This document shows positions 4,056-51,600 of a stretch of 64,000 bases of DNA, piece by piece (the first letter of the stretch is position 1; each line of letters starts with the position of its first letter). The notes under the pieces are model-generated. The model did no database searches and was not told the origin of the DNA. It worked only from the letters and a program-made list of their open reading frames with translations. The position numbers and the translations under genes are program-made. Origin of the DNA: Malus domestica (lineage: Eukaryota; Streptophyta; Magnoliopsida; Rosales; Rosaceae); assembly GCF_042453785.1 (NCBI RefSeq), contig NC_091669.1, positions 33,869,001-33,933,000 on the forward strand, read 5' to 3'.

Positions 4056-7000
4056 CTAACAAACAACATTCATCTTCTGCTTCCTGGCCATAACAAACTT
4101 CCTCCAAACTATCGTGATCTCCCTTGTTTTCTCCAAATCACTCTTCTTACTCTCAAGTGTCGTCCCAGGTTTCTCACCTTCTTCATCAGCAGCCTTCACG
4201 TTGGAGCTAAGCTTAGATGGAAGCGTGTCAAGTTCTCTCAACACTTTTTTGATGTCATTCACAAGCCGCTCGGCCAAAGTGCGAGAGAAGTCTTCCCTAA
4301 TGACAACACGTAGCACGGTGATGTGTTGCGCGTCTGGGGGCATAGTGTATGCCGGAACGATCCATCCGAAGCGGCGAAGCAAGTCGGAGATTTCAAACTC
4401 GTCGTGGCGATGGTTATCCTTCAAAGAGAAGGCCACCAAGGGTACACCTTCATCTTTGGAGACTATGTTGAAACGACCTGTCTTCTCCAATCCTTCTTTT
4501 AGTACTACCATGTTTTCACGACAATTTTCCATGACGTTCCTGTATCCCTAATTTACATATACAAGAATTAACATATTAGTATCACGTTTGAGACTTTCAG
4601 GCATATTTACTTGATCACAATTAGATGTCTAAATGATTTTCTATTTGATTAATATTTTATGCAAGATTGACCTATCAGGAAATTGGAGGTGTCCTATTAG
4701 CCATTTGACATGTACATATAATTAATAGTAAAATTTTCATGATTATTTCATTTAGAAGTTATTAGTGTACTCACCTCAAAACCCAAGCGAATCAGTTGAT
4801 AATATTGAGCAATAACTTGGCTGGAGCCTGCATTGTGAAAAACATTTCGAAAGCTTAACATGTACTTAATTAAGTGAATTAATTGTTAATACTATCACAA
4901 AATTAAAGAAGTCTTTAAACTAGTACCTTTTGAGAAGTTGAGGGTGAAAGTAGGTTGGTCAGCTCCAAGATAGTTGATATGGAAGATGAGTTCTTCCGGC
5001 AAATCTTCTTTGTTCCTCCAGATGACCCATCCAATCCCTGCATACACAAGTCCGTACTTGTGTCCGCTAACATTGATGCTCTTAACAAGGGGCAAACGGA
5101 AATCCCATTCCAGTTCTGGGTATAGAAATGGAGCAATAAACCCACCACTTGCTGCGTCTACATGGATTGTAGTATCCCATCTGTGTACCCAAGCCGAAGA
5201 TGTAAACCAGTAAATAATGTGTCACATCAGTTGGTAATAAAAGTTTAAAATACTACAATTCCTAATCTTGTACAAGTGCACCAAAGTCACAATGTATGTA
5301 CGTACGCCTACACAGCGAACTTGTAAGAAAGAGATAGAGATAGAGATGCATACCCAGTTTCCTTGTTCTTCTCTATCAAGAGATCGTTCAAGAGCTTAAC
5401 ATCTTCGAACTCACCGTTGAGGGTGGAGCCGAGGATAGCAGCAACACAGATTGTGTTCTCATCAACCATTTCCACTGCTTTCTCAGGGTCCATTACATAG
5501 TAGCCATCCCTCAACTTCACCTCCTTCAACTCCACCTCAAAGTACCTTGCAAACTTCTCCCAGCACACCTTAAATTTATACAACAATATATATTTATTTA
5601 GTTCAGTATATATGTAGCAGAGGAAAAATGATTCACAGTAGTTTGATTAATTGCAATGCTAAAAGTACCAAATTTTTTGTGCACTAGTACTTAAATCACA
5701 TTACATTACGCAGCAAGTGATGTTCGAGTACCAACTAGTCATCATAACTAAGGCAACAAGTCGACCACTCATGTCACATACCGTGGTTCATTAATGTAGT
5801 TTAAGAATGTGGTCTTCATAACATAAATTGTATAATGATAGCTATATGAATACCTGGACATTGGCTCCGGTGACAATGTTGGGTTTGTCAACGGGTTTGC
5901 CCTCAGCTCTCCTCTTGTTTTGCCACTTCCTCTTGAATGCCAAGCCAGCCAACATGATGGCCTCAGAAGAGCCCACCGTTCCCACTCCAATTGCTGCCTC
6001 TGAATCTCCCAATGGTGCATTGAACAGATGAGCTATCATGTTTACGCATCGATTCTGTCATGTTTTCATGCGCATAATATCAAAACACACATCAGTTTCA
6101 TGTATGCACTAACTGTACGTGCACCATTTAGCTTTCAGAATTTATCATAAGGTTGTAAATTAATTCTATGAATTAGTAGAAAACAAATTACAAATTCGTT
6201 GTGAGTGGTTGATCGTATCATTCAGATTCTCAGAATGAGTGTCATAGTTGCATTTATCCTTCAATTTTTATTTGTCTCTCTAGATGCATGTCAATTACAT
6301 TTAACCTTTGATTTTTATTTGTCTCTCTCCTCATGTAAGGCAATGCAATCAGTATAATTATGAGTTGTCCTCCATTAGTTGGTATACACAAAGCTTTAAC
6401 TTAGAGAAACAAACGCAATGCTACAAAGATGGCAGTTGAAAAATCTAAAAGTTGGAGGTTAAAAGATAAACAAAAAGAAAAAATTCACTGTTCGAATTCT
6501 AATTCGATTCTGAAACTTTAAATGTATGACTATGCAGTCAACATTTGGAAATTTCTTGTCTAAGACTGATTCTAATTGTAATTCTAATTCAATTTTAAAA
6601 CTGATTCTTGCATACTCGATCGTCAATGAAAGTTTGGTCCTTCCTTCTTGACCAAAGTCGAAACATGCATCCAATCTTTCACATCAACACGTTTTACAAA
6701 ACGGACTGAATAATTTTTATGTAAACCATGCGTGCAATTAATTTTGACGAGTAAATTGTAGTTATGGTCCCTTAACTTTAACTCAATTGGAGCAATAGTC
6801 TCTCAACTAAAAATTTATTACCATTGGTCCCTCAACTCATCAAAACGTACAACTATAGTCCCTCAACTAAAAATCCATTATCATTGGTTCCTCAACTTTA
6901 ATTCAACTGGGGAAATGATCCCTTAACTTTAACCCAATTGTAGCAATGATCCTTCCAACATAACTCATTTTGACAAAAATTTTGACGTAGTTGACAAAAA

Positions 7001-15038: not shown

Positions 15039-16475
<1,437 letters not shown>

Positions 16476-17654: not shown

Positions 17655-18965
17655 TATATACCTTTGAACTTGATGGAATACGCATTGTACGAAATTAATT
17701 TCAACGATCCAACCGTCAAAATTGTTTGTATATATTCCGAGATCACATACGCCAAAAATTGGAAAAAACAAACATCCAAATATCAAGTAACGGGAAAAAA
17801 CCTTTCGACGGTTATAAACGAAAAATCACGATTTAACGGTTATTTTAACTCCAATTTGATGACTTTTTACAACTACATTCCTTGAGCCTATATCAATACA
17901 ACGAACCAATTCGATTGTCAATTTAAAATATTTACACAAGCGGATACCACAAAATGTTATGTTAAACTTAATGATAGTATAAATAAACTCCAAGTGTTAG
18001 GAAATCTATCGTTTTGATGAAATACGCATTCTACGAAACTAATTTCAACGATCCAACCATCAAACTTGTTTGTATATATTCCGAGATCGCATACGCCAAA
18101 AATTGGAAAAAAACAAACATCCAAAGATCAAGTAACGAGACAAAACCTTTCGACAGTTATAAACGAAAAATCACGATTTAACGGTTATTTTAACTCCGAT
18201 TTTGATGATTTTTTACAGCTACACTCCTTGAGCCTATATGAATACAACGAACCGATTCCATCCTCAATTTAAAATATTTACACAAGCGGATACCACAAAG
18301 TGTTATGTTAAACTTAATGATAGTATAAATAAACTCTAAGTGTTAGGGAATCTATCGTTTTGATGGGATACGCATTGTACGAAACTAATTTCAACGATCC
18401 AACCGTCAAACTTGTTTGCATATATTCCGAGATCGCATACGCCAAAAATTGAGAAAAACAAACATTCAAATATCAAGTAACGGGACAAACCTTTTCGACG
18501 GTTATAAACAAAAACGCACGATTTAACGGTAGTTTTAACTCCGATTTTGATGATTTTTTATAGCTACACTCCTTGACCCTATATGAATACAATGAACTAA
18601 TTCGATCTTCAATTTTAAAATATTTACACTAGTGGATACCACAAAATATTATGTTATACTTGATGAAAGTATAAATAAACTATAAGTGATAGTGAATGTA
18701 ATGTTTTGTATGAAACTAGTTTCAACGATCCAACCGTCAAACGTATATGTACATGCTTCGAGATTGCGTACGCCAAAAATCGCAAAAAACAAACGTTCAG
18801 AGATCAAGTAACGGGACAAAACTTTTAGACGGTTATAAATGAAAAAGCACGATTTAACGGTAGTTTTAACTCCGATTTTGATGATTTTTTAGAGCTACAC
18901 TCCTTAATCCTATATGAATACAATGAAGTAATTTGATCGTCAATTTAAAACATTTATACAAGTGG
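17655..18965. repeat. Tandem array, unit about 345 bp, within CACTA
   Basis: Near-identical blocks start at about 17671, 18016, 18361 and 18706 (spacing 345 bp). Each contains TTTCAACGATCCAACCGTCA, then ACGGTTATAAACG, then GATTTTGATGATTTTT. Further single copies follow at about 19200-19468, and at 20212-20570 after the nested hAT. Several copies keep a partly open plus-strand frame containing FNDPTVK and FNSDFDDF. No known protein is recognised. Confidence 0.85.
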
Positions 18966-19189
18966 ATACCACAAAAGAAAAAGGCATTACAAGAACCCCA
19001 AAAGAAGAGCAAAAGAAAAAAAAAAACCACTTTGCGCGACGTAGGTCCACCTGCGTTGCGCAAAGCTGTTTTGCACGACGCATGTGTACATACGTCGCGC
19101 AAAGTGTTTTTTTTTTTTTTTTCCTTTTGCTTTTCTTTTGCCCTTTTGCTTATGAGTACAAAATAAATAAATTAAAATGTACTTACTAA

Positions 19190-21822: not shown

Positions 21823-21970
21823 TGGGCTTTGTTCGAAAGTGGATTTAATGGGCTTACATCTAATTGGGCCTTGGGTTACTATCAAGCAACTCCACCGCAT
21901 TGTCTATACTTGGACCGGGCCTAAAATTCTCAATGAAATTAGGGTTTGAAAGTGACGAGAGCCTATATAA
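21823..21970 (+). promoter_or_regulatory. Site II / telo-box / TATA promoter, unit A
   Basis: Three TGGGCY site II motifs (21823, 21849, 21865) are followed by a telo-box-like ATTAGGGTTT (21938-21947) and a TATATAA at about 21964. This combination is known from plant snoRNA and ribosomal-protein gene promoters. The same order is kept in unit B (46257-46409) although surrounding DNA has changed. Probable target: the snoRNA candidates at 22147 and 22358. Confidence 0.6.
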
Positions 21971-22146: not shown

Positions 22147-22239
22147 GGGATTGAAGTGATGCTACTTTCCCCATATGATCGAAGCTGATTCAAACTTGCG
22201 CTATATTTTAATTTCCAAGCCAGAACTCTGATCTCTCCC
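22147..22239 (+). ncRNA. Candidate C/D-box snoRNA 1, unit A
   Basis: C-box-like AGTGATGC follows a short 5' stem segment GGGA. An internal CTGA (D' box) occurs after GATCGAAG, and a final CTGA (22228-22231) is followed by TCTCTCCC that can pair with the 5' GGGA. It is paralogous to candidate 2 (shared TTTCCCC and ATGATCGAAGCTGA text). It lies downstream of a site II/telo-box promoter. The target RNA is not identified and the C box is imperfect. Confidence 0.4.
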
Positions 22240-22357: not shown

Positions 22358-22464
22358 AGATGAAAGTAATGATTATTTCCCCAAATGATGGAAGCTGAAA
22401 TAACTGAGCAACTTACATCTCTGTATACCGCAGAGATACGAATCCAGGTGCATCTGATCCATCT
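22358..22464 (+). ncRNA. Candidate C/D-box snoRNA 2, unit A (degenerate C box)
   Basis: Equivalent to 46746-46852. The terminal stem is AGATGAA with TCCATCT. The C box is AGTAATGA, which loses the invariant TGATGA. The D box CTGA is at 22454-22457. A conserved internal hairpin, ATCTCTG with CAGAGAT, encloses TATACCG. The C-box change suggests this copy may be inactive while unit B keeps a canonical version. Confidence 0.4.
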
Positions 22465-28858: not shown

Positions 28859-31800
28859 CTAACAAACAACATTCATCTTCTGCTTCCTGGCCATAACAAA
28901 CTTCCTCCAAACTGTCGTGATCTCCCTTGTTTTCTCCAAATCACTCTTCTTACTCTCAAGTGTCGTCCCAGGTTTCTCACCTTTTTCATCAGCAGCCTTC
29001 ACATTGGAGCTAAGTTTAGATGGAAGCGTGTCAAGTTCAGTCAACACTTTTTTGATGTCATTCACAAGCCGCTCCGCCAAAGTGCGAGAGAAGTCTTCCC
29101 TAATGACAACACGTAGCACGGTGATGTGTTGCGCATCTGGGGGCATGGTGTATGCCGGAACGATCCATCCGAAGCGGCGAAGCAAGTCGGAGATTTCAAA
29201 CTCGTCATGGCGATGGTTATCCTTCAAAGAGAAGGCCACCAAGGGTACACCTTCGTCTTTGGAGACTATGTTGAAGCGACCTGTCTTCTCCAATCCTTCG
29301 TTTAGTACTACCATGTTTTCACGACAATTTTCCATGACGTTCCTGTATCCCTGATTTACATATACAAGAATTAACATATTAGTATCACGTTTGAGACTTT
29401 CAGGCATATTTACTTGATCACAATTAGATGTCTAAATGATTTTCTATTGGATTAATATTTTATGCAAGATTGACCTATCAGGAAATTAGAGGTGTCCTAT
29501 AAGCCATTTGACATGTACATATAATTAATGGTAAAATTTTCATGATTATTTCATTTAGAAGTTATTAGTGTACTCACCTCAAAACCCAAGCGAATCAGTT
29601 GATAATATTGAGCAATAATTTGGCTGGAGCCTACATGGTGAAAAACATTTATACTCAGTCGAAAGTTTAACATTTACTTAATTAAGTGAATTAATTGTTA
29701 ATTCTGTCACTAAATTAATGAAGTCTTTTAAAAAAGTACCTTTTGAGAAGTTGAGGGTGAAAGTAGGTTGGTCAGCTCCAAGATAGTTGATATGGAAGAT
29801 GAGTTCGTCCGGCAAATCTTCTTTGTTCCTCCAGATGACCCATCCAATCCCTGCGTACACGAGTCCGTACTTGTGTCCGCTAACGTTGATGCTCTTCACA
29901 AGGGGCAAACGGAAATCCCATTCCAGTTCTGGGTAAAGAAATGGAGCAATAAACCCGCCACTTGCTGCGTCTACATGGATTGAAGTATCCCATCTGCATA
30001 CCCAAGCAGAAGATGTAAACCAGTAAATAATGTGTCACATCAGTTGGTAATAAAAGTTTCAAAATACTACAATTCTTGATCTTGTACAAGTACACCAAGT
30101 CACAATGTACGTACATACGCCTACACCAACGAACTTGTAAGATATAGATAGAGATAGAGATGCATACCCAGTTTCCTTGTTCTTCTCTATCAAGAGATCA
30201 TTCAAGAGCTTGACATCTTCGAACTCACCGTTGAGGGTGGAGCCGAGGATAGCAGCAACGCAGATTGTGTTCTCATCAACCATTTCCACTGCTTTCTCAG
30301 GGTCCATTACATAGTAGCCCTCCCTCAACTTCACCTCCTTCAACTCCACCTCAAAGTACCTTGCAAACTTCTCCCAGCACACCTTAAATTTATACAACAA
30401 GGTATATTTATTTAGTTCAGTATATATGTAGCAGAGGAAAAACGAGTCACAGTAGTTTGTAATGCTGAAAGTACCAAATTTTTTGTGCACTAGTACTTAA
30501 ATCACATTACATTACGCGTCAATTGATGTTCGAGTACCAACCAGTCATGATAACTAAGGCAACAAGTCGACCACTCAAGTCACATACCATGGTTCATCAA
30601 TGTAGTTTAAGAATGTGGTATTCATAACATAAATTGTATAATGATAGCTATATGAATACCTGGACATTGGCTCCGGTGACAATGTTGGGTTTGTCAACGG
30701 GTTTGCCCTCAGCTCTCCTCTTGTTTTGCCACTTCCTCTTGAATGCCAAGCCAGCCAACATGATGGCCTCAGAAGAGCCCACCGTTCCCACTCCAACGGC
30801 TGCCTCTGAATCGCCCAATGGTGCATTGAACAGATGAGCTATTATGTTTACGCACCGATTCTGTCATGTTTTCATGCGCATAATATCAAAACACACATCA
30901 GTTCCATGTATGCACTAACTGTACGTGCACCCTTTAGCTTTCAGAATTTATCATAAGGTTTGTAAAATTAATTCTATAAATTAGTAGAAAATAAATTACA
31001 AATTCATTGTGAGTGGTTAATCGTAACATTCAGATTCTCAGAATGAAAGTTATAGATGCATTTATTCTTCGATTTTTATTTGTCTCTCACCTCAGTCCTC
31101 ACGAAAGGCAATGCAATCAGTATAATTGTGAGTTGGCCTCCATTAGTTGGTATACGCAAAACTTTAACTTAGAGAAACAAACGTAATGCTACAAATATGG
31201 CAGTTAAAAAATCTAAAAACTGGAGGTAGGTTAAAAGATGAACAAAAAGAAAAAATTCACTGTTCGAATTCTAATTCGATTCCGAAACTTTAAATGTACG
31301 CTATGCAGTCAACATTTGGAAATTTCTTGACTGAGACTGGTTCTAATTCTAATTCTAATTCAGTTTTAAAACTGATTCATGCATACTCGATCGTCAATGA
31401 AAGTTTGGTTCTTCCTTCTAGACCAAAGTCAAAACATGCATCCAATCTTTCACATCAACACGTTTTACAAAACGGACTGAAATTTTTTTATGTAAAGTTG
31501 TAAACCATGCATGCAATTAATTTTGACATATGTAATTGATGATTTTATATTTCTTAGAAGGGGAGGGAATAGAAAATAAAAGTAGTCACACCAAAAATAA
31601 AAAAAAATAAAAGTAGTAAACGCAAAAAAATAATTTATACATCTATCTACTATAATCAAATTGGCCTTATCTAAGAGTTTGGCATTGCTACTTAGTACTA
31701 TGGTATTCTTCCTCATTTGTAAGTGAAAAGTCTTAAGTTTAATTCTCTTCAAAGACGAATTTGAACCACATTATTGTTAGCTCATTGTGAGGCTAAGTCA

Positions 31801-43839: not shown

Positions 43840-44690
43840 ATTGCAACCACTTTTGAAAACTAAACCAAAATAATATATACTATTTTTGTAATAGAACAAA
43901 ATAAACACTATTTTTTTAATTATAACAAAATAACCACATTATTTCTGAAAATTGAACCAATATAACCCACATTATTTTTGAAACTATAGCAAAACAATCA
44001 TACTAATTCTGAAACTGAACTAAAATAACCACACAATTTCTAAAACTAAACCAAAATAACCACACTATTTCCAGAACTCCAGCAAAATAAATCACACTAT
44101 TTCTAAAACTGAACCAAAATAATCCACGCTATTTATGAAACTACAGAAAAATAACTCACACTATTTATGAAGTTGAACCAAAATATCCCACATTATTTCT
44201 AAAACTATAGCAAAATAATCACACTATTTCTGAAACTAAACCAAAATAACCCACACTATTTATGAAACTATAACAAAATAACCAAACTATTTCTGGAACT
44301 ACAACAAAATAACCACACTATTTTTGAAACTGAACCAAAATAACCTACATTATTTCTGGAACTACATCAAAATAACTCACACTATTTCTGAAATTGGACC
44401 CAAATAGCCCACATTATTTCTGGAACTACAACAAAGTAGCCCTCACTATTTCTGAAAATTAAATCAAAATAATCTGCATTATTTCTGGAAGGAAACAAAT
44501 AAACATTGTTTTGGGAATTACAACAAAATAACCCACATTATTTTGAATCTAAACCAAAATAACCAACACTATTTTTGGAACTGGACCAAAATAACCAACA
44601 CTATTTTTGGAACTGGACCAAAATAACACACTATTTTTGAAATTGCAACAAAATTACACCTATTTTGAAACTGAACCAAAATAATGAGTT
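43840..44690. repeat. Minisatellite 2, unit about 31 bp
   Basis: About 27 imperfect copies of a unit containing CCAAAATAACCCACACTATT and TCTGAAACT. Variation is by substitution and small indels. There is no unique spacer between copies, so it is not a CRISPR-like array. Unit B only. Confidence 0.85.
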
Positions 44691-46256
44691 TTAAAACGAG
44701 GAGATTTCTATTCTTATGAGCCAAGATTTTCACTACGTTGTGTTTAGATAAGGATTTTGAAGAGCACTAACGAGTTTTAAATTATTTATTTAGTTTTCAC
44801 AACTACTTAACTTATTTGCCTGTTAATATCATCTCGTTGGCAGATAATTAGCATTATTGTGATAGGTTAGCATGCCTCGACTTCACAAGTCAAGTCATAC
44901 ATCTCATTGACATGTTCCTTTTGAATAATATATTCTGGAGTTTATGAATTAGCCTTATTATTGTTCCCTAGATATTATTATTTTTGGTCAGTAATAACAA
45001 TTGCATTGATAAGGGAAATACAAATGGAGACAAAAGGATGAGGGTACAAACGTCCAAACCCAAATAAAAGATAGAAAATAAAGGTGATTTGATCCAAAAA
45101 AAATAAAAAAGGTGATTTGACCAACATTAAAAAGAAAACAAATGTGACAAGCAGATACATGGATACATCCAACACAAATATTTAATGGGAGTGTGGCCTC
45201 GACAAACTTCATGCAGTTCAAAGCCTAATAAAAATATTTAACTTTTTGATGGAATGAATAGACGAAATGAGACTTTCGTTAGGGGCATAGGCTGAAAAAT
45301 GAAACATTAGTGTTGCATGAGGGCTTCTTTATTATTGATGAGGCTTTAGTTTTTATTCTTATTATATTGTATTTTGTCATTTTTATTAAATTTCAAGTTA
45401 ATAAAGTTATAGGGTGGTTTTTTGTTAAAATAAACTTATCTCAAGCCCTTTTTATTAAAGCTCTCTATTTATATATAATCTCCAACTGGCTATGTTTAGC
45501 CTCTCAATAATATATTATTTTTAAGTTTGTTGAATTAAATTACCATATTAAAACTACAACAACTTAGACATTAATTCAACAATTGAATTTAGCGTGTTCT
45601 TTAAATGGCTTGGGTATTTATATGAAAAAAAATGTGAAGAATTGAAATAAAATGAGTTAAGGTAGTATGGAAGGGTGGGAAAATATGTGAGAAATGGTAT
45701 AAAAATGGCTTAGGTATTCATAGGAAAAAAATTTGAAATTTTAATTTCTTTTTAAAATTTCGTCCTAAAAAAAGAAAAAAATAATTCCAAAAGCTAACGT
45801 CAACTGACGTCATGTATCTGTTAGGTGTTGATAGACTGGGCCAGCAAACGGCTAGTTGGCTGGCTAACAATGCACAACCTAATGGCCAAAGGGCTGAAAC
45901 TTGACCTAGTGGGTTCCTTTTTTCTTTTGGCCCAGCCCTTCATTGGAGTTGGATTGTGGAACATTTCGACCTGAAATATGACCTATGGCCCTATAGCCAT
46001 CTCCAATGGAGATAGCCTCACAATCTCCAATGGAGATGACCTCACAATCCTCAACTCCTTTAGTTTAGCCACTAAAAGAAGCTTAATTGGGACTCTTTCT
46101 CCTTGGCCTAGTTGGGTAAGGATATTAAGTCCTCGTTCGGAATTACATTTAAAATAGTTGAAAGCGCTTTTCGTTTTGGTGATGATGTTTTTAGAATCAA
46201 TCGTTAGTAAAATGCGAGTGAATTGATAACGTTGCAATTGGAAGGAGCCACCACAA

Positions 46257-46409
46257 TGGGCTCCGTTCGAAAGTGGATTTGATGGGCTTACATATAATTG
46301 GGCCTTATGGTAACCATCAAGCAACTCCGCCGCTTTGTCTATACTTGGACGGCGCCTAAAATTCTCAATGAAATTAGGGTTTCCAAGTGCAAGACGAGAG
46401 CCTATATAA
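46257..46409 (+). promoter_or_regulatory. Site II / telo-box / TATA promoter, unit B
   Basis: Three TGGGCY motifs (46257, 46283, 46299), telo-box ATTAGGGTTT (46373-46382) and TATATAA (46403-46409) occur in the same order and similar spacing as in unit A. Preservation of these motifs in both copies supports a real pol II transcription unit downstream. Confidence 0.6.
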
Positions 46410-46552
46410 TTGAATCGCCTCCTCCGACCCTCTCACTCTACCCCCGCCTCAGACTCATCACCTTCCTCGTAACATTTGGTTTGCGTTTATGTTCTTTGAT
46501 TTTGCGTGCGTGTTCTTGGATTATTTTGCGTGTTCAAATTAGGGTTTATTTT

Positions 46553-46646
46553 GGGAGTTGAAGTGATGCTACTTTCCCCATATGATCGAAGCTGATTCAA
46601 ACTTGCGCTATATTTTAATTTCCAAGCCAGAACTCTGATCTCTCCC
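46553..46646 (+). ncRNA. Candidate C/D-box snoRNA 1, unit B
   Basis: 5' stem GGGAG, C-box-like AGTGATGC, internal CTGA after GATCGAAG, final CTGA (46635-46638), then TCTCTCCC closing the stem. A telo-box-like TTAGGGTTT lies just upstream (about 46540). Sequence just 5' of the D box contains CCAAGCCAG, also present in candidate 2 of this unit, so the two may share or have shared a target. The target is not identified. Confidence 0.45.
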
Positions 46647-46745
46647 AATTCCCCCAAAATCCACTTTTTTTTTCAAATCTATTTTTCTCAATTTCTTTTT
46701 TTTGTTTTGTTTTGTTTTTATGAGTTTCTTATTGAAAAAAGAAGA

Positions 46746-46852
46746 AGATGGAAGTGATGATTATTTCCCCAAATGATCGAAGCTGAAATAACTGAGCGAC
46801 TTACATCTCTGTATACCACAGAGACACCAAGCCAGGTGCATCTGATCCATCT
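46746..46852 (+). ncRNA. Candidate C/D-box snoRNA 2, unit B (canonical)
   Basis: A perfect 7-bp terminal stem AGATGGA/TCCATCT encloses C box GTGATGA (46754-46760) and D box CTGA (46842-46845), with internal CTGA boxes near 46782 and 46792. A strong internal hairpin TCTCTGT/ACAGAGA surrounds a 5-nt loop. Length 107 nt. The arrangement is that of a box C/D snoRNA, which guides 2'-O-methylation of rRNA or snRNA in the nucleolus. It is a tandem relative of candidate 1 and probably cotranscribed. I do not recognise the snoRNA family. Confidence 0.55.
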
Positions 46853-48630
46853 TTCTCCACCATATTATAAATATTTTTTATTTTTTATTTTTTATGATTT
46901 TATATACGTTTCTGTTATGATAATTCGCGGGTACGATAAAATACAATGCATTTTTGTGTATGATTTTATTATTTGTCTATTTTTGTTGGTTCAAATAAGC
47001 ATATTTTTCGGCTTCAAATGATGTCCATAACGAAGGACAGAGAGTAGAAGGAATTATCTCCTAGAAATTAATTTCTTTTTTCTAATTTTATGGGTTGATT
47101 CTCGCGGGAGTTTAAATACGCCGCATTTTGACGGATGTGAAGGATATATTTAGCTGCATGTGGACATGCAAATTTAATCCAATCCCTTGTAAAATATTGC
47201 TTATATGACACGGATTTTTTTATAATTCCTTCACAATTAGCATGAGACGCCACGCATTATATATAATTCCTTCACAAGCCAAAGAATGAAAGCCAAAAAA
47301 GACGTTTTTTTTGGTTACCTTCCCAACCTTTTCTCAATGGTGGCTGAGACATGCTCAAAGGACTTTCTAAAAAATGGGACTGTTTGTTATTATACGGTTT
47401 TAAGATCAATTATTGTTAAAATATTATGTCAAAAAACATGAAATGACATAAAGTCATTAAGAGTAACACTTTTGAAAGTCCCTTAACATTGTCTCATGCT
47501 AATAGTTGAAAGGATAAGATTAGGAATGAGGATATCCAAGGTAAAGTAGAAGTAGTCGAAATTGAAAGAAAGATGGGAGAAAATTGGTTACGGTTATTTG
47601 GACATATGCAAAGAAGATCTACTAACGTTCCAGTTAGACGGGACAGAGATCCAGAGCCGAAGGGGTAGAGGAAGACCTAAGAAAATTTTGGAAGAGACTA
47701 AGAAAAGATTTAAGAGTACTTGAATCTAACGAAGATCATAACACAGAACCGACCGCAATAGTGTTCTAAGATTCATATAACCAATCCCACTTAATGAGAA
47801 AAGGCTTTGTTGTTGTTGTATCATAGTTGAGAATTCGAAGGATTCCACGAGAGTTAAATTCAAGAGTATTCAATCAAATGTGATTCAAACGATTTTAAAA
47901 GAGAAAATCGACGTGTCCTTGGTGGATAGAGATCAGCAGGTACGAACCATCGGCCATTATTTTTTGAAATGCATTTGCCAATGAAGGAACATTCAAAAAG
48001 CTAGCTTCCCATTGGCGTATGAAATTAAAATGTTGTTCTATAAAGAGAGGAGTCATAAAATTTGAGGTGAGTCATGAAGAAGGAAAATTGCGAAGGCTAG
48101 CAATCGACGAGGAGGAAAGAAGAAGCAAATCAATAAGAGTCGAGAATCCAAATGGTGCACAAGAAACAGATGAGTCAACAACGCTAACATAACACCAGAG
48201 GGGGAAGTTTCCGCCACCATGTCTTTCGCCTTTTCTACCCTTCCTGCCTTCCCCTTTTTCCGCCCTTCGGAGCCTTCCATTTTTTCCACCCTCCTTGCCT
48301 TATTTCAAAATACAAAAGTCCACAGTTGCCTATCCCTGAAACACAACCTAGAAGTCATTAACTTCAAAAAATAAAAGAAAACGTTTGTGCTAAATGAGAA
48401 AACTATTTCAATAAAACCAAAAAAAAGAGAGAAGAGGGTAGAATAATTTCTCAAGAAAACATGGGAATCACAAGAAAATTAAGCAACAAATTTGAATTGT
48501 GTTTAAAAATTGCCCTACAAACAGGCATTAGGTCACATTACTTTCAATAAGATTGTGATGAAAATTCTAGAAACGGTGGAATACAAGATGGAACTCACCT
48601 CCAAAGCAAGTCTGAAAACTGCAGTGGTTC
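46853..48630. other. Intergenic between snoRNA candidates and ICDH-B
   Basis: No gene is seen. It holds a LINE tail (47500-47822) and otherwise aligns with 22465-25620 minus the unit A insertions. The unoccupied hAT site is at 48323-48330. Confidence 0.6.
47500..47822 (+). mobile_element. 5'-truncated LINE 3' end, unit B only
   Basis: The plus-strand text reads in pieces as the C-terminal end of a plant non-LTR retrotransposon ORF2: WLRLFGHMQRRSTNVPVRR, then arginine-rich text, then a TTG-repeat tail (GTTGTTGTTGTA). The TTG tail and GHMQRR text suggest an RTE-like or L1-like clade. Several stops and frameshifts are present. Unit A lacks the insert near 23100. Confidence 0.75.
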
Positions 48631-51600
48631 CTAGCAAGCAAGCTTAGCTTTCAGTTCCTCGGCCACAGCATCAATGAACTCTTCAGTATTCAAGTAGTGG
48701 TTCCTAGCCAGCCTGCAGCACACGAAAGCATGTTTTAAATAAACTCACTGCTCAAATAGAGGCACAAGAAAACACAACTCACACGTGCAGAGAGACAAAT
48801 TATGAAGATAAAATAAACTATCAAATACTTACTTGGATCCGTGAAGAATTAGGGCAAGATCCTTGGTCATTTTCCCCGATTCCACAGTTCCAATACAAGC
48901 TTCCTCGAGTTTTTGAGTGAACTCCAAAAGTCTTGCATTGTCATCCAACTTCGCCCTATTACCAAGATACATTCAAATTCAGATCTACTGACCTTTTCAA
49001 GGAACATTAAGATATCAAAGAGGAGCGCTAACTTGGAAAACAATCTTTCCAATATACCTATGTGCTAGGCCTCTTGTCCAAGCAAAGATAGAAGCTATGC
49101 TATTTGTACTCGTTTCACCTCCCTTCTGGTGAACCCTGTAATGCCGAGTGACTGTACCGTGGGCAGCTTCAGCTTCTATAGTCTTTCCATCTGGGCACAC
49201 CTGTATCCATGAAATACTCCAGTAAGTGATGAACAAGGATTCACACAAATTAGGGAGTGAGAGATGCAGGGGTAAGTATAAATACACATGAAACAGGTTT
49301 AACATACCAGTACTGATGTCATCAATCCAAGAGATCCAAACCCTACAATAGAACCACAAGTTAAAAACTGCAATCGCTCAGTATGCAAATCATTGATGAG
49401 ACGAAACAAAAATTAGCAAACGGGCAGTTGTACGAACCTTGAGCTAACATATCACTTTGCACATCCCCATCATAATTCTTGCATGCCCAAACATACCCAC
49501 CATCACTTTTAAGTGCATACGCCACCATATCATCAATGAGACGATGCTCATACCTTCCAATCCAATAGTATATAATCAATAAAACAACACCATTTGACCT
49601 CAGGATCCATTCTATGAAACAAAACGCCAGGCTTTTCAGTCCTGACTCCTTACCATATGCCAGCAGCTTCAAACTTTGATTTCCAGTTAGCTTCATAAAC
49701 TTCTTGAAATATGTCCTTGAATCTTATATCATGAACAAACAAAAATACAGATAGGTAAGATAATGATAAGTACAAATGTCAAATCTTTTTTTTGTTCGTC
49801 AAAACAGGGAAATTAGGAATCTGCGTACCTTCCATCATACTTCTTCAGAATAGTATTTTTTGTGCTAAGATAAAGAGGCCACTTTTTCTCAAAAGCTGTG
49901 GTCATGGAAGCCTCTGCAAAAGCACGGATGGACTGCATACCCAAGACAGATATACAATATAAGGGACAAACCCAGTGACTCACAGCAATCAAGAAATTCT
50001 TTCAACAGAAACACGAAAGGAGTAACAAATTAAACCTCATCAGTGTTATACATGGCCAATGCAACTCCCCCCTCCCCTGTAAAGTTGTAAACCTCTAGCT
50101 CTGTCTTCTCATCCTTTCCTTCTGGCACTGCAAGCATTTATCATGTAATAAGACAAAAAACTAAAGGAATTTAAGAACTTTCACTTATCAAGAGAAACTC
50201 TGCACGTATAATCCTACTAAACTACAGTGCTGTACACAAATCTAATACTATCAAAGTATAGATAAAAGTTTACCAAACACCAATTTCAGTTTCCCAGGTC
50301 CTTTAATGACTGCATCAGTTGCTCGATACTGATCACCAAAAGCATGTCTTCCAATGCATATCGGCTTTGTCCAGCCTGAAAACAGAAACAATAAGCATTG
50401 TTCTAATCCGACGAAACTATAGAATCACCATATGACATTATAATACCTGGGATAAGGCGAGGGATATTTTTGCAAATAATTGGTTCTCTGAAAACAGTAC
50501 CTGTAGAAAAAGCAATCACTGTAATTTGAAAAGAAAATTGTTCAAAAGATGAAAACGTATAGTTGACAGTTCACTAACCATTCAAAATATTCCTAATAGT
50601 CCCATTGGGACTCCTCCACATACTCTTCAAGTTAAACTCCTTCATACGAGCTTCATCTGTCAATTATAACGACAATATCATGAATTTTGTCAATCTCTCG
50701 GTGACGACTGAAAATATTAATACAGGATCTGGAGTTAGAAAACAAATGCATGTATAATTGTTCAATAGTGTATACCTGGAGTAATAGTTGCACACTTGAT
50801 CGCTACATTGTACCTTAAATACCAAGTGTTAGAGATGCGGAATGAAATAGCAAAATAAAATTTCCAAGCAAAAAGATACTCTAAGCACTCATTGTTCTTC
50901 CGTTCTAAGAACCTTAAGTAGAGATGCGATAAACGTACTTGAGAGTAGCCTCGGCACTTTCAACAGTAACCTTGTCATCAGTGGCATCACGATGAGGAAG
51001 ACCAAGGTCAAAGTATTTGATGTCCAATTCCACAAATGGCAAAATAAGCTGCAGATACATCAAAGAGAAAGAATCATATAAGCAACCACCATCTTGATCA
51101 CAGCAGCATGTAATTGCAAAAAGTAGTATTAGTGAAGCACTTAAAGAGTAAGATGTAGATACCTTGTCCTTGATGGATTTCCAGAAAACCCTTGTCATTT
51201 CGTCCCCTGTACCACATATCAAAAGACAGTATGAACAAGTGTACGGTGCAATTTCCTCTCTCGACCCATGTACACAAGCGTATTAGTTTCGTAAAGTTAG
51301 AGTTAAATGAAATCAACAAGTGTGCCATGCAGTGTGAGTATGACTGTGCCGTGCATTCCGAGTTCTTCACACTTTCATGAGTTAAAAAGAATATCTTGGT
51401 GAGTTCTGACTGAATACTTCTGTCCAAACATTTTATGCCTCAAACTTTTAACATAATTTCTTTGAAAAAATCATTGATTCATCACAGTTCAATTCTTAGA
51501 GGCTGGTAACATATAAAGGTCGTATGCACAAGGCTCCCGCTTTACGCAGCGTGCACAAGGCTCCCGCTTTACGCAGCGTCTGGGAGAGGTGAATGTCGGC

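Follow-up and report, generated by a model that had tools for sequence, protein, structure and literature searches.

A probable dicistronic gene for two snoZ103 C/D-box snoRNAs in Malus domestica

Introduction

The 64-kb stretch of Malus domestica DNA analyzed here (C9:33869001-33933000, referred to below as the window) raises the question of whether two neighboring sequences, which a sequence-only reading had proposed to be a tandem pair of C/D-box snoRNA candidates of a family it did not recognize, are snoRNA genes, to which family they belong and on which RNA they may act. The pair occurs twice, in an upstream unit A and a downstream unit B, and it was the latter that had drawn attention. 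Judged from its sequence, unit B is very probably (probability about 0.85) a gene transcribed by RNA polymerase II that is dicistronic and encodes two paralogous C/D-box snoRNAs of the snoZ103 family. Positions below are those of the window, and features lie on the plus strand unless stated otherwise.

Results and Discussion

To assign the candidates to a family, an Rfam covariance search, as the sequence-only reading had suggested, was performed. Four matches above cut-off were obtained in the window, every one of them to snoZ103 (RF00149; curated cut-off 44 bits): snoRNA 1 (46557-46643, 53.8 bits) and snoRNA 2 (46748-46850, 76 bits, E 1.1e-13) of unit B, and snoRNA 1 (22150-22236, 55.9 bits) and snoRNA 2 (22360-22462, 54.1 bits) of unit A. 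The proposal of a tandem snoRNA pair was thereby borne out, and since the covariance search assigns it to RF00149, the unrecognized family turns out to be already known. Candidate 1, described earlier as a sequence relative of candidate 2, belongs to the same family and lies 104 nt upstream of it. Both unit B candidates possess the C box, D box and terminal stem that define C/D-box snoRNAs. Like the Rfam family, all four window copies have C and D boxes and cover the full 100-position model, and the TTTCCCC and CAAGCCAG blocks of the consensus are also found in the window RNAs (in snoRNA 2 of unit A, TTTCCCC only). Unlike the Rfam family, the window genes form a tandem pair of diverged paralogues, in which snoRNA 1 is shorter and without an internal hairpin, while in snoRNA 2 the distance from CAAGCCAG to the D box is longer by 2 bases. 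Our literature search, which covered open-licence papers, returned no paper on the snoZ103 family.

Including its terminal stem, which was read from the sequence, snoRNA 1 of unit B extends from 46551 to 46648. The stem TTGGGAG/CTCCCAA (46551-46557 with 46642-46648) reaches outside the Rfam match, and its GGGAG/CUCCC part is present in the predicted fold; an automated stem search chose other registers for snoRNA 1 in the window units, with 8 and 7 pairs and one G-U each. The C box GTGATGC (46563-46569) is followed by the conserved block TTTCCCC (46573-46579), which is found in the Rfam consensus and in all four units of the genome described below, by a D' box CTGA (46592-46595), by the block CAAGCCAG (46623-46630), which is the complement of 25S CUGGCUUG, and by the D box CTGA (46635-46638). 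The folding energy of snoRNA 1 is ordinary (z 0.18; 102 of 200 shuffles equally good). Directly 5' of the internal CTGA, both unit B RNAs contain the conserved stretch TTTCCCCAnATGATCGAAG.

For candidate 2, a perfect 7-bp terminal stem had been claimed. A terminal stem is indeed present, but it consists of GAAGATGGA/TCCATCTTT, that is, 9 pairs including one G-U, so that snoRNA 2 with its stem occupies 46744-46854. The C box GTGATGA (46754-46760), the two internal CTGA boxes (46783-46786 and 46792-46795) and the D box CTGA (46842-46845) were confirmed as described; TTTCCCC (46764-46770) and CAAGCCAG (46828-46835) are shared with the Rfam consensus. The internal hairpin noticed earlier is also real: TCTCTGT/ACAGAGA, 7 bp at 46806-46824, appears both in the predicted fold and in an alignment of 16 copies, where 92.9% of its cells are paired and 2 of its 7 pairs show changes on both sides. 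The RNA as a whole has a folding z of -2.94, with 1 of 200 shuffles folding equally well. Terminal stem and hairpin together reach 93.4% standard pairs over the 16 copies, compared with 28-55% when slid by 1-3 columns. Covariation proper is weak in the two helices, because the 3 pairs that changed on both sides are matched by 65 of 500 shuffles. In our reading, the Rfam consensus is able to pair at the equivalent place (UCUCU/AGAGG), where Rfam annotates no pairs. Therefore, the hairpin is compatible with a snoZ103 identity and is no sign of a different one.

We then considered the region upstream of the RNAs. In unit B, three site II motifs TGGGCY (46257, 46283 and 46299; 46257-46304), the telo-box TAGGGTTT (46375-46382) and the TATA box TATATAA (46403-46409) follow each other in this order, 300 to 154 bases 5' of the Rfam start of snoRNA 1. 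The order is identical in unit A (21823-21970), with TGGGCY at 21823, 21849 and 21865, TAGGGTTT at 21940 and TATATAA at 21964. The telo-box, 24-28 nt 5' of the TATA box, and the TATA box itself are kept in all four units (as TATAAAT in C17b), and so is a second telo-box TAGGGTTT (46540-46547 in unit B) just 5' of snoRNA 1. Of the two further units, C17a has two TGGGCY motifs, a telo-box and a TATA box at like spacing, and C17b a single, more distant TGGGCY in front of the same telo-box/TATA stretch. Clusters of at least two TGGGCY motifs with a telo-box and TATATAA occur twice in the window, namely in the two units, and in none of 60 first-order Markov simulations, by a criterion that was fixed post hoc with the site already seen. 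The promoter proposed by the sequence-only reading was confirmed, and it conforms to the type published for plant snoRNAs. The available part of PMC4660826 describes site II elements and a telo-box upstream of a TATA box as the kind of promoter that polycistronic snoRNA genes of plants have, and unit B contains site II and a telo-box within 1 kb upstream together with a TATA box, as the TeloSII class is defined. It resembles the TeloSII genes of that part of the source in having all three elements before the cluster, and no notable difference from them was seen there; here the cluster comprises just two snoRNAs of one family. From the promoter at 46257-46409, one non-coding precursor would be transcribed, with a predicted start around 46430. 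Both RNAs would be excised from this precursor, their ends probably shielded by the terminal stem and the C/D kink-turn, and would be expected to assemble with the usual C/D proteins, as is established for the class.

The pair and its promoter had been said to be kept in both units of the window. This holds for the promoter and for snoRNA 1 (22150-22236 in unit A; 86/87 identity to unit B), but only in part for snoRNA 2 of unit A (22360-22462). At 95/103, the identity of this RNA to the unit B copy is close to that of the flanks, which amounts to 205/226 on the upstream and 94/106 on the downstream side. The C box reads GTAATGA, CAAGCCAG is changed to GAATCCAG and ATGATCGA to ATGATGGA, while TTTCCCC and the D box are retained. 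One of the nine terminal-stem pairs is lost, leaving 7 consecutive pairs, and in the predicted fold of the RNA trimmed to its Rfam ends the terminal stem is no longer formed. Going by these changes, snoRNA 2 of unit A is decaying.

The surroundings of the pair are a tandem duplication (3667-28300 and 28470-51330) with a step of about 23-25 kb and end pieces that are 93% identical, in which the snoRNA pair lies between gene frames. Frames matching pyridoxal-dependent decarboxylase were found at 30062-30496 (over cut-off) and at 4059-4547 and 28862-29431 (below cut-off), a weak match to isocitrate dehydrogenase at 49018-49377 (below cut-off), and a subtilase (Peptidase_S8) fragment on the minus strand at 15530-16057. 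Tandem arrays occupy 17670-18976 (346-bp unit, 3.8 copies) and 43857-44684 (32-bp unit, 26.5 copies).

The search was extended to the whole genome (651 Mb, 19 contigs), in which 52 of 48,656 first-look candidates were scored, so that the counts are lower bounds. At least 23 snoZ103 matches were found, at least 21 of them over cut-off. Among the matches listed, eight form pairs in four units: the two in the window (9A and 9B for units A and B) and two on C17, at 33.27 and 33.43 Mb (17a and 17b). The identities of snoRNA 1 are 86/87 (9A-9B), 86/86 (17a-17b) and 84/86 (9B-17a and 9B-17b). For snoRNA 2, they are 101/104 (17a-17b), 99/103 (9B-17b) and 97/103 (9B-17a), and for the copy of unit A 95/103 (9A-9B), 91/103 (9A-17b) and 89/103 (9A-17a). 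Outside the RNAs, 9B and 17a have diverged to 71/100 with 65 gap columns in the spacer and to 41/77 with 55 gap columns downstream. All four units have both TTTCCCC and CAAGCCAG in snoRNA 1, and three of them have both blocks in snoRNA 2 as well. Since the RNAs are more alike than spacer and flanks, the four snoRNA 1 and three snoRNA 2 copies look constrained, and the pattern of RNA conservation in unit B fits purifying selection. The module that unit B has in common with C17a (46243-46865; blastn pieces 46243-46474 at 79% and 46735-46865 at 92%) comprises promoter, leader, snoRNA 1, spacer and snoRNA 2, and nothing beyond. Likewise, in the roughly 10 kb around each C17 unit, blastn (E 1e-10) detected no match to the window genes adjoining unit B. 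This conservation also bears on whether the locus could be a relic or lie within an ordinary mRNA. Such a reading might draw support from the decaying snoRNA 2 of unit A and from the 15 dispersed copies described below, all altered and some with broken boxes. Unit B, in contrast, retains both RNAs and the promoter amid a diverging remainder, and we regard a relic or mRNA origin as very unlikely. Unit B is accordingly best read as a member of a known family in the usual plant gene arrangement, and the value of the result lies in naming the family, in telling the likely functional copies apart and in giving exact RNA ends. The role of snoZ103 and its spread with Helitrons are side leads.

To approach this role, complementarity to rRNA and snRNA was analyzed. 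The guide targets that the sequence-only reading had proposed to seek next to the CTGA boxes did not emerge, and no shared canonical methylation guide was found. In a scan that allowed no mismatches, two eukaryotic rDNA contigs yielded no complement of at least 9 bp beside D or D' that the consensus shares with both snoRNAs, and U1, U2, U4, U5 and U6 of the own genome yielded none that is common to snoRNAs 1 and 2. For snoRNAs 1 and 2 the scan also covered degraded own rDNA pieces, the other rDNA being foreign contigs. The two own rDNA copies that were inspected, L033 (C16:33.01 Mb) and L034 (C1:27 kb), are both shortened and mutated. The foreign set (L053-L060) consists of eight contigs from bacterial metagenome bins of the species genome set. 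Each contains a 25S rRNA word of eukaryotic type, and several contain further rRNA words, so that they look like eukaryotic contamination.

The block CAAGCCAG pairs over 8 bp with 25S CUGGCUUG, and this match is common to snoRNA 1, snoRNA 2 and the Rfam consensus. Both in L053-L056 and in the degraded own 25S copy L033, CUGGCUUG is embedded in the peptidyl-transferase context AACUGGCUUGUGG. Its presence in L053-L060 is given by construction, since these contigs were fetched with a pattern containing CUGGCUUG, and the one independent occurrence is L033, which was found through 5.8S. TTTCCCC can form 7 pairs with GGGGAAA in all three sequences, and 8 with GGGGAAAG in snoRNA 1 and the consensus. 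GGGGAAA is found in the context GGGGAAAGAAGACCC, before GAAGACCC, in three of four foreign contigs (L053, L054 and L056), a site that we take to belong to 25S domain V; it also occurs at further places in L054, L056 and the own 18S piece, and in L033 at another place only. Beside D', the window RNAs contain AUCGAAG, which fits a nearby CUUCGAU in L053, L054 and L056 but not in L055 or L033, and which the Rfam consensus lacks. For the block ATGATCGA, no 8-base complement was found among the conserved rRNA words. The rRNA pairing is short and stands out weakly from shuffles of the three 8-base blocks, which had been picked after the match was noticed: the values are 0.05 for the 8-mer, 0.13 for a 7-mer in two blocks and 0.019 for the two combined, with CUGGCUUG being in the conserved-word set owing to the same fetch pattern.

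The complementarity between CAAGCCAG and the 25S peptidyl-transferase sequence is suggestive only. Tentatively, we lean toward the reading that the conserved blocks, chiefly CAAGCCAG, may pair with 25S peptidyl-transferase strands as an atypical guide or an aid in rRNA folding, although this reading received less weight because the GGGGAAA site proved less specific. The distance from CAAGCCAG to the D box is 4 nt in snoRNA 1 and 6 nt in snoRNA 2. As the available part of PMC5464676 gives at most two unpaired bases between guide duplex and D box as tolerated, CAAGCCAG is too distant for the usual guide geometry. According to the accessible part of PMC8536666, the yeast C/D snoRNA snR190 serves as a placeholder on domain V of 25S, where it does not methylate. 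As far as this part of the source goes, snoZ103 is like snR190 in having an antisense element to the peptidyl-transferase domain, and perhaps also in guiding no methylation there, but its complements are shorter and concern other strands, and the likeness is one of complementarity alone. That snoZ103 is a non-guide plant snoRNP holding 25S peptidyl-transferase strands (CUGGCUUG, perhaps GGGGAAAG) during large-subunit assembly, and thus a functional counterpart of snR190 whose Helitron relatives are mobile snoRNA genes freed from the target, is a speculation that we consider unlikely to be correct. If the peptidyl-transferase pairing were true, snoZ103 would gain a role in building the catalytic center of the plant ribosome.

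The presence of C, D and D' boxes would also suit a canonical 2'-O-methylation guide. Its target could be the 25S C facing position D+5 of snoRNA 1 and the consensus, a G in the end pair of the CAAGCCAG duplex, or another site reached by a guide extending to the D box. We take that C to be the equivalent of E. coli C2452. The register GAACT/GAAAU does place a G at D+5, and two complements reach the D box: the consensus CAGAAAUC, the last base of which is the D box's own, fits 25S GAUUUCUG over 8 bases in the same context in L055, L056 and the own copy L033, and CCAGAACU of snoRNA 1 fits AGUUCUGG over 8 bases in L055 and L056 in differing contexts. The match between the consensus and GAUUUCUG would agree with an ordinary guide function in other plants, but the window RNAs have not kept it. 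Further points argue against a canonical guide, which appears rather improbable: CAAGCCAG is separated from the D box by 4 unpaired bases (6 in snoRNA 2, with the register shifted by two), the D-reaching matches are restricted to single sequences instead of all three, and the mismatch-free scan of two rDNA contigs and five own snRNAs gave no shared complement of at least 9 bp.

It is conceivable, albeit doubtful, that snoZ103, as an orphan C/D snoRNA, has mRNA or another RNA as its target or serves as a source of smaller RNAs. The scans revealed no convincing canonical target in rRNA or snRNA, and the available parts of PMC8053127 and PMC5122169 count several C/D snoRNAs of plants among the orphans, yet CAAGCCAG does fit a conserved 25S sequence. 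Base acetylation of 18S rRNA is guided by some C/D snoRNAs (available part of PMC5464676), and an acetylation guide like yeast snR4 and snR45 was considered as well. No bipartite complement to 18S helix 34 or 45 was found among runs of at least 8 bases (a length that shorter guide halves would escape) in the rDNA contig L053, which has both helices, and in L056, where helix 45 was found by word only; we hold this to be the least probable of all the alternatives.

Apart from the paired genes, at least 15 dispersed single matches of type 2 (L013-L027) were found, 13 of them over cut-off. Helitrons end in a hairpin and CTAG before a T, and a Helitron-like 3' end of this kind was found 0.6-1.2 kb after the snoRNA start in at least 9 of the 15 copies (eight by pattern, that of L019 by eye). 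On the snoRNA side, L016-L019 share about 3 kb at 99% identity. L016, L017 and L018 have a further 7.4 kb or so of upstream sequence in common, again at 99% and up to a common left end, which gives elements of about 9.5 kb, while L019 matches upstream in parts only, with no left end seen. In L015 and L016, open frames lying 5' of the RNA showed matches to PIF1-type helicase domains. In 12 of the 15 copies (L014-L020 and L023-L027), an inverted repeat, in some cases represented by its two arms and measuring about 270-490 bp in total, ends within 7 bases of the snoRNA start, which it overlaps by three bases in L026. Among the titles listed in a literature search (12 of 1,055), none was on a Helitron-borne snoRNA.

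TTTCCCC and CAAGCCAG are both altered in all 15 dispersed copies, while stem and C box are mostly kept. Alignment counts were based on 12 distinct copies, with three of the near-identical L016-L019 left out; six of the 12 have an intact C box together with an intact D box. Columns of the stem and the C/D boxes changed in 8 of 27 cases, compared with 39 of 62 elsewhere (Fisher 0.005), the hairpin columns (9 of 14 changed) being in neither group. When the comparison was confined to G/C columns, 6 of 11 and 21 of 25 had changed (0.10). Because the copies are related and the G/C-only contrast is weaker, this bias is no proof that the dispersed copies function. The Helitron copies show a route by which C/D snoRNA sequences spread in a plant genome and confuse annotation. 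In some dispersed copies, a short frame ending in VYKLVTVDSSEEKRWK terminates in the C box.
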